From Treponema sp. (lineage in GTDB: Bacteria; Spirochaetota; Spirochaetia; Treponematales; Breznakiellaceae): DNA of 6,155 nt. The first letter of the stretch is position 1, and the number at the start of each line of letters is the position of its first letter. Position numbers and translations under genes: made by a program. Below, one piece after another: positions 3,857 to 4,082 of this stretch. The DNA is taken from NCBI GenBank assembly GCA_009786675.1, contig WQRP01000094.1, forward strand, positions 1 to 6,155, read 5' to 3'. Under the pieces are notes generated by a model. The model was not told the DNA's origin. It was given only the letters and a program-made list of their open reading frames with translations, and did no database searches.

Positions 3857-3895
3857 AAAAAAAACCCTTCCAAAACCAGCCTGGTCTTGGAAGGG
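3857..3895 (-). terminator. Strong rho-independent terminator (second of a tandem pair)
   Basis: On the minus strand, CCCTTCCAA (3895-3887) pairs perfectly with TTGGAAGGG (3873-3865). Between them ACCA (3885-3882) can pair with TGGT (3878-3875), extending the stem to about 13 bp with one mismatch and a 3-base loop. Eight consecutive T residues follow (3864-3857), the classical intrinsic terminator form. On the plus strand the hairpin is followed only by GCTTTACTT, so the minus strand is the intended direction. It would stop transcripts from the small RNA upstream before they reach ddl. Confidence 0.9.
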
Positions 3896-3908
3896 CTTTA
3901 CTTGAATT

Positions 3909-3948
3909 AAAAACCCCTTGGGAAAAGGAGGTGAGGAAACCCAAGGGG
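3909..3948 (-). terminator. Rho-independent terminator with anti-Shine-Dalgarno loop (3' end of the small RNA)
   Basis: On the minus strand, CCCCTTGGG (3948-3940) pairs perfectly over 9 bases with CCCAAGGGG (3922-3914), followed by TTTTT (3913-3909) and then AATT. The loop is long (17 bases, 3939-3923) and reads TTTCCTCACCTCCTTTT. It contains TCACCTCCTTT, identical to the conserved 3' tail of 16S rRNA. A terminator needs only a short loop, so the long pyrimidine-rich loop suggests a second role in base pairing with ribosome binding sites. Confidence 0.8.
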
Positions 3949-4047
3949 CCGTCTTACGAAACAATGCTGAAAAACCAAAGCTGCTACACTGTAGATGACT
4001 TGCTTAGGCTAGCGTTGTATGTCTCATCTGTGTTGTTCCGTCAGACT
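3909..4047 (-). ncRNA. Predicted structured small RNA with an exposed anti-SD loop, no family recognised
   Basis: No plausible protein gene fits this stretch, but the minus strand shows a full RNA-gene layout. The promoter described at 4054-4082 predicts a start at about 4047/4046. There, GTCTGACGGAACAA (4046-4033) pairs with TTGTTTCGTAAGAC (3964-3951): 13 of 14 positions pair, with one G-A mismatch and one G-T wobble. Inside, CCTAAGC (4008-4002) pairs with GCTTTGG (3981-3975) with one mismatch, enclosing CTAC/GTAG (3994-3984). Two bases after the closing stem comes the terminator hairpin, whose 17-base loop matches the 16S rRNA tail. Expected length is about 138 nt, or about 190 nt with read-through to the second terminator. 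The layout is observed; the idea that the loop pairs with Shine-Dalgarno regions of target mRNAs is inference. It is not recognisable as tmRNA, SRP RNA, RNase P RNA or 6S RNA. Confidence 0.7.
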
Positions 4048-4053
4048 AGTAAC

Positions 4054-4082
4054 AATATACTAAATCCACCCTGGCTATTCAA
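4054..4082 (-). promoter_or_regulatory. Sigma70-type promoter of the predicted small RNA
   Basis: On the minus strand, TTGAAT (4082-4077) and TATATT (4059-4054) are separated by exactly 17 bases. They match the consensus at 4 of 6 and 5 of 6 positions. The start point expected about 7 bases after the -10 box coincides with the first base of the long closing stem of the RNA, an independent agreement that raises confidence. Confidence 0.7.

Follow-up and report, generated by a model that had tools for sequence, protein, structure and literature searches.

A predicted trans-acting small RNA of Spirochaetota with a conserved anti-Shine-Dalgarno terminator loop

On the minus strand of the window, the 6,155-nt stretch of Treponema sp. 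DNA analyzed here, we identified a predicted small RNA (sRNA) gene whose terminator loop carries a conserved anti-Shine-Dalgarno (anti-SD) sequence. We read it, with a probability of about 0.73, as a free-standing, trans-acting sRNA of the Spirochaetota that would pair through this loop with the Shine-Dalgarno (SD) sequences of mRNAs and lower translation initiation without Hfq. Because the ribosome-like loop is kept in many spirochetes of the Treponema group, the sRNA probably blocks the starts of mRNAs. Sequence, predicted structure, promoter layout, the conservation of loop over stem, the change of neighboring genes and the lack of an SD-led ORF on the plus strand were computed, and from these we infer transcription, mRNA pairing and repression. 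According to the proposed mechanism, the sRNA would be transcribed from its own promoter, and its fold would combine a variable 5′ domain with a terminator hairpin, whose open loop would present the conserved anti-SD ACCUCCUUUU, extending up to UCACCUCCUUU. This loop would pair in trans with the SD of mRNAs, with no involvement of Hfq, and compete with the 16S tail of the 30S subunit for the same SD bases, leaving less translation initiation.

The sRNA gene lies in a divergent gap with ddl on one side and ftsK on the other. By Pfam, the minus-strand genes of the window encode a SAICAR synthetase, a CDP-alcohol phosphatidyltransferase, a phosphatidylserine decarboxylase and the D-Ala-D-Ala ligase, and FtsK is encoded on the plus strand. 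The ligase has 67% identity to its best relative among the 80 loci kept, and its top relatives in that set are mostly titled Treponema sp. or Spirochaetaceae MAGs, with isolate names that we take to indicate a termite-gut origin. Phage records gave no match to the sRNA locus. From the fold and the homologues, the sRNA is predicted to run from about 4047 to 3909 (~139 nt), both ends being estimates. A consensus scan placed a predicted sigma-70-type promoter at 4054-4082 of the minus strand, with a -35 element TTGAAT (4082-4077), a 17-nt spacer and a -10 element TATATT (4059-4054). Downstream of it, the 5′ domain (3951-4046) is closed by a helix of 4046-4043/3954-3951 and 4041-4033/3964-3956 around a variable middle. 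The intrinsic terminator that follows (3909-3950) has an 11-bp stem with arms at 3950-3940 and 3922-3912, a U run 3′ of the stem, and a 17-nt loop, TTTCCTCACCTCCTTTT (3939-3923), which is fully open in the fold and which we presume to be the seed. The 139-nt RNA folds at -43.1 kcal/mol (z -2.75), a value equaled by 1 of 200 shuffles. A further minus-strand hairpin of 18 bp with a 3-nt loop (3861-3899), stronger in the fold than the sRNA terminator hairpin, carries no anti-SD and is followed by eight T; it could possibly serve as a back-up terminator that separates the sRNA from ddl.

The initial annotation had pointed to a 17-base minus-strand terminator loop whose core equals the 3′ end of 16S rRNA, and this reading held when the loop was compared with the 16S rRNA of relatives of the window's genome. 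A search covering 17 genomes found the tail in six spirochete genomes, where it reads GGATCACCTCCTTTC in the eight copies inspected; the stretch common to these tails and the loop is therefore TCACCTCCTTT, 11 nt long, at 3924-3934 of the minus strand. The flanking bases differ, with A in the 16S rRNA and C in the loop before the match, and C and T, respectively, after it. The same 11-mer occurred in 108 of 200,000 shuffles of the loop's own letters. The part of the loop that is kept among homologues extends beyond the 16S match into UUUU, and it is exactly complementary to an SD (AAAAGGAGGU).

Conservation across the nearest family supports the claim that the minus strand holds an sRNA gene with an anti-SD loop under selection. 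When the window region was compared with 22 genomes by blastn, the hairpin and loop were recovered in 15 genomes (16 places), with 84-94% identity over ~33-51 nt and E values of 9e-9 to 0.002. A covariance model of the hairpin with 46 positions, R1, was then searched in 195 genomes of the nearest family, that of G001. A strong match (best E of 1.9e-11 or lower) was obtained in 135 of them and lacking in the other 60, which are genomes of unstated completeness; at E ≤ 0.01 the number with a match rose to 152, of which 17 had weak matches only (E above 1e-4). Most family genomes have one strong copy and six have two (G008, G092, G109, G161, G179, and G184). The core ACCTCCTTTT was present in all 58 family rows, a figure to be read with the selection of these loci in mind, since the loop is part of R1, which thus favors loop-bearing loci, the homologues were found with queries containing the loop, and the filter that parsed the rows required CCTCCTTT or CTCCTTTT. 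The 58 rows stand for 55 distinct places because of three duplicates (L089/L138, L091/L156, and L084/L166). With a pattern that fixed the common stem and left 8-30 loop bases free, 65 places were found in 64 of the 195 genomes, and 64 of these places have the ACCTCCTTTT anti-SD loop and one has another loop.

Within the hairpin, conservation is highest in the loop. The 58 rows show eight different loops and thirteen versions of the nine inner stem pairs, and in an alignment of 17 rows (14 distinct) 14 of 17 loop columns were invariant vs. 9 of 20 stem columns. A loop that drifts freely on a preserved stem had been named beforehand as counter-evidence, and what we found was the opposite, with the stem as the changing part. 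Both sides had changed in 4 of 10 stem pairs of the same alignment, and none of 500 shuffles attained its covariation score, although pair types were no more numerous than in shuffles (446/500). The 5′ domain is poorly conserved and its middle varies widely. Its arms have a mean pairing energy of -15.1 kcal/mol with their own partners, -12.1 when swapped between species and -8.1 when shuffled (52 distinct loci; standard deviations 4.5-4.9), a moderate signal for the closing helix. A second conserved motif suspected by eye in this domain, TTTTACAGC, was dropped, as it was present in only 2 of 49 loci. An ORF of at least 15 aa lies inside the 5′ domain in 16 of the 58 rows, and we claim no small peptide because the domain is so poorly conserved.

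Nine weak second matches in the family (L168-L176) were left out of the member count; they mostly contain only CTCCTTTT or less, and L171 has CACCTCCTTTT. Six of them (L168, L169, L170, L172, L173, and L176, in G036, G034, G033, G032, G037, and G151) share another hairpin, (A/G)GCTCCCCGGG, with the loop TTTTTCTCCTTTT and relatives of it, and an unpaired CCTCCTT stretch upstream. In L168-L170, judged by eye, a pstB-type gene may end before the hairpin, and these three loci and L172 have a TTGTTACC or TGTTACC stretch upstream. These loci possibly represent a second CU-rich RNA or a 3′ UTR.

Transcription from a dedicated promoter is suggested by the homologues more than by the window. The site TTGAAT-17-TATATT proves nothing by itself, since the consensus scan of the window gave 2 sites vs. 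2.2 expected. Across the family, 49 of 55 distinct loci have the layout TTGA[ACT]N-17-TAnnnT at a distance of 60-185 nt upstream of the loop; the opposite strand has it in none of the 55, and shuffles in 1.6%. Promoter score alone separates poorly, as all 58 rows score at least 8 and so do ~59% of shuffles. L193 and L206, whose upstream sequence is too short, stand outside this analysis. The possibility that the plus strand, as an SD plus ORF, is the functional one had been raised at the outset; it was rejected, since a start codon 3-14 nt after GGAGG was found in 0 of the 58 family rows, a count that leaves out a GTG overlapping GGAGG, as in the window.

Matches beyond the family are weaker and differently built. 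At E ≤ 1e-4, R1 matched in 173 of 390 genomes of the order and 68 of 392 of the phylum, both sets being draws from the larger groups with family members included, and in 0 of 30 other genomes. Of these 30 controls, several of them small, 29 are titled as another phylum and one (L035) is titled only 'bacterium'; 10 of the 30 match at E ≤ 0.01, so weak R1 matches mean little. The order-level loci that were retrieved have stems that differ from those of the family, and their 5′ regions are mostly shorter; ACCTCCTTTT was kept in 18 of 20, L196 and L204 being without it, and L203, which fell outside the hairpin filter, was inspected by eye. Visual inspection of 20 phylum-level loci (L250-L269) showed that at least 10 (L250-L252, L255-L257, L264, L265, L267, and L269) carry two anti-SD-like copies, one in the terminator loop and one upstream of the terminator, in a hairpin or single strand.

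The targets of such a loop were sought among SD sequences. In a 400-kb sample of one genome, an SD match of at least 5 nt preceded 60% of 243 ORFs vs. 29% in the control, and a match of at least 7 nt preceded 8% vs. 3%. In 400 kb of G147 (L220-L239), AAGGAGGT occurred 7 times vs. 35 for the reversed word, and AAGGAGG 33 times vs. 104, so long SD-like words seem to be avoided in this sample. Across four complete genomes, AAAGGAGGTGA-N0-9-ATG was found 3 times vs. 2 for the reversed control and AAAGGAGGT-N3-9-ATG 18 times vs. 27, with only G033 exceeding its own control for the latter (10 vs. 4). The initial annotation had proposed a subset of strong-SD genes as the target set; because long SDs are near or below control level, this proposal found no support. 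Of the 18 strongest-SD sites in the four complete genomes, 16 have an ORF of at least 60 aa, and these ORFs include two solute-binding proteins, two ABC permeases, one sugar MFS transporter and an L-fucose isomerase, a list that is a lead and not a result given four genomes and 27 sites in the reversed control. A search of 20 genomes for the 15-nt loop complement, allowing up to 1 mismatch, returned 27 matches, of which 16 are the sRNA gene itself, and an extended target defined by the full complement was rejected, as the 11 non-self matches compare with 16 for the reversed control. Thus, among the SD patterns and loop-complement matches tried, no conserved target was found. For seven of eight model SDs, the computed pairing energies of the loop and of the 16S tail are about the same; against the full loop complement, pairing is stronger for the loop than for the tail (-27.2 vs. 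-18.1). Hfq (PF17209) was found in 0 of 10 genomes, a set drawn from outside the window's own genome, and in 5 of 14 named control genomes. The sRNA would accordingly act without Hfq, and Hfq-independent action is common among sRNAs of low-GC Gram-positives.

Several other explanations of the locus were considered. As a cis leader or attenuator, the terminator would control read-through into the next gene, and gene order gives this idea some footing: 18 family rows (16 places) and L194 have a gene of an AMP-binding ligase cluster 3′ of the sRNA in the same orientation, and a gene of a rex-type repressor cluster lies 3′ in 10 order-level loci (L189-L193, L199-L202, and L205). These flanking genes are the longest non-overlapping ORFs, picked by script, clustered by blastp and not curated, with one representative per cluster named by Pfam. 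However, 19 of the 53 right neighbors in the family rows face the other way and 34 lie on the same strand (51 places, 19 opposite and 32 same, since the 58 rows are 55 distinct places), and the neighbor differs between lineages. On the 5′ side, 13 rows have an oppositely oriented gene of an AI-2E family transporter cluster, and 12 order-level loci have one of a cluster that resembles phosphoribosyltransferases but falls below the Pfam cut-off. A predicted promoter was found between the sRNA terminator and the next gene for 8 of 10 rex genes (3% of shuffles) and 9 of 19 ligase genes (0.5%), and in the window the second terminator hairpin precedes ddl. On neighbor orientation and downstream promoters we reject the cis role, which we judge highly improbable; the varied orientation, the turnover of neighbors and the downstream promoters speak instead for an independent, trans-acting RNA. 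In L089, L143, L154, L184, and L185, palindromes such as ATGACAT...ATGTCAT adjoin the likely AMP-ligase promoter and are a possible operator.

The 11 nt identical to the 16S tail would also suit a decoy of the 16S 3′ end, in which the loop titrates a factor that recognizes the tail, such as the GTPase Era, an RNase or an initiation protein, with no mRNA pairing. We consider this very unlikely, since GAUCA, the upstream bases that Era presumably needs, is not kept. Where GA would precede TCA, family loops carry a C, T or A and in most cases CC or CT; most order-level loops read TTTAACC or TTTACC, and conservation does not stop at the end of the 16S match but goes on into UUUU. The GC stem and the U tail would also fit an ordinary terminator whose pyrimidine-rich loop has no function in trans; this is scarcely credible given that 49 of 55 distinct loci have the dedicated promoter layout, that the loop is kept while the stem changes, and that the 30 other genomes gave no match at E ≤ 1e-4. 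Alternatively, the partner of the loop could be another RNA (a sponge or sRNA) or the SDs of one or two mRNAs, with the likeness to 16S rRNA as a by-product. The failure to find a broad target class is in line with this idea, yet an exact SD complement kept over much of the phylum would fit many targets better, and we regard a restricted partner as unlikely. The preferred reading, a trans-acting sRNA that pairs with SDs, can also be taken further. It is conceivable, if on balance doubtful, that one fixed loop (ACCUCCUUUU) borne on different scaffolds serves the whole phylum as an anti-SD module independent of Hfq. Such a module would compete broadly with the 16S tail, tuning the choice of mRNAs, and may partly explain the scarcity of long SDs. 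Its scaffolds would be one terminator loop in the Treponema family, rex-adjacent short RNAs in the order, two-copy RNAs elsewhere, and perhaps the post-pstB-like terminators.

Few sRNAs are on record for Spirochaetes, with 6 distinct annotated ones tabulated in the accessible part of a 2022 review (PMC9029176). The sRNA described here would be a widely conserved one in a phylum with few known sRNAs, and its sequence allows a directly testable guess at its mode of action. It would be a natural case of an RNA loop imitating the sequence with which the ribosome reads mRNA over 11 nt, in a setting where no Hfq was found (10 genomes), and it lets one ask how a generic anti-SD sRNA gains selectivity, or whether any is needed.

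No Rfam 15 family reached its gathering score in any of the 18 loci compared, which were taken from 207 (8 family, 6 order-level and 4 weak second matches). In the window, RF02837 (anti-hemB, 3947-3857, minus strand) was the sole match to Rfam at E values up to 1, and it was rejected at 19.7 bits vs. a gathering score of 49.5 (E = 0.39). In the accessible literature on spirochetes and on anti-SD sRNAs, as distinct from subscription papers and supplements, no account of this RNA was found, and 'Shine-Dalgarno' occurs 0 times in the main text of a Borrelia transcriptome paper (PMC10319736). The initial annotation knew of no loop so close to the rRNA tail; this stands in so far as we found no Rfam family or published account, and has to be qualified in that anti-SD loops as such are known, according to the available text of the papers on the alpha-r14 RNAs (PMC10746234; PMC3927594) and on the LhrC terminator loop (PMC4132741).

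As described in those texts, the alpha-r14 or 'cuckoo' sRNAs of Rhizobiales (SmelA075, SmelA099, and NfeR1) have an ultraconserved anti-SD, CCUCCUCCC, in each hairpin loop on divergent stems, and are predicted to pair with several mRNAs, in the case of NfeR1 mostly those of ABC transport systems (PMC10746234; PMC3927594). The spirochete sRNA is like them in the feature tested, a conserved loop on divergent stems. Unlike them, so far as these accounts go, its loop is TTTCCTCACCTCCTTTT, with the motif ACCUCCUUUU and without CCUCCUCCC; it has a single anti-SD hairpin instead of three or four, as seen in the window and in 17 folded transcripts; and it belongs to a different phylum and differs in sequence. 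In Listeria, the terminator loop of LhrC (CUCCC and four U) is reported to help bind the SD region of lapB, with mutation and partial compensation, and the available text gives the motif at three sites and five gene copies (PMC4132741). Both RNAs would present a CU-rich terminator loop complementary to the SD, a likeness of mode and not of descent, whereas the spirochete sRNA has one motif site and mostly one strong gene copy, and the sequences are unrelated. Anti-SD stretches rich in C and U are likewise described, in the accessible portions of the respective papers, in loops and single strands of the NmsR siblings of Neisseria, which have three stem-loops and act on carbon metabolism (PMC5362039), and in the double-hairpin RNAs of Burkholderia (RF02278), which have a predicted role in carbon metabolism and of which one member attenuates growth when overexpressed (PMC5688073). 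The spirochete sRNA resembles both in its CU-rich anti-SD mode; they differ from it in having three stem-loops and two hairpins, respectively, and in being beta-proteobacterial, and RF02278 gave no gathering-score match in 18 homologous loci and none in the window up to E = 1. Taken with the lack of an Rfam match and of a published account, these anti-SD precedents indicate a new spirochete family that would act in a known mode.
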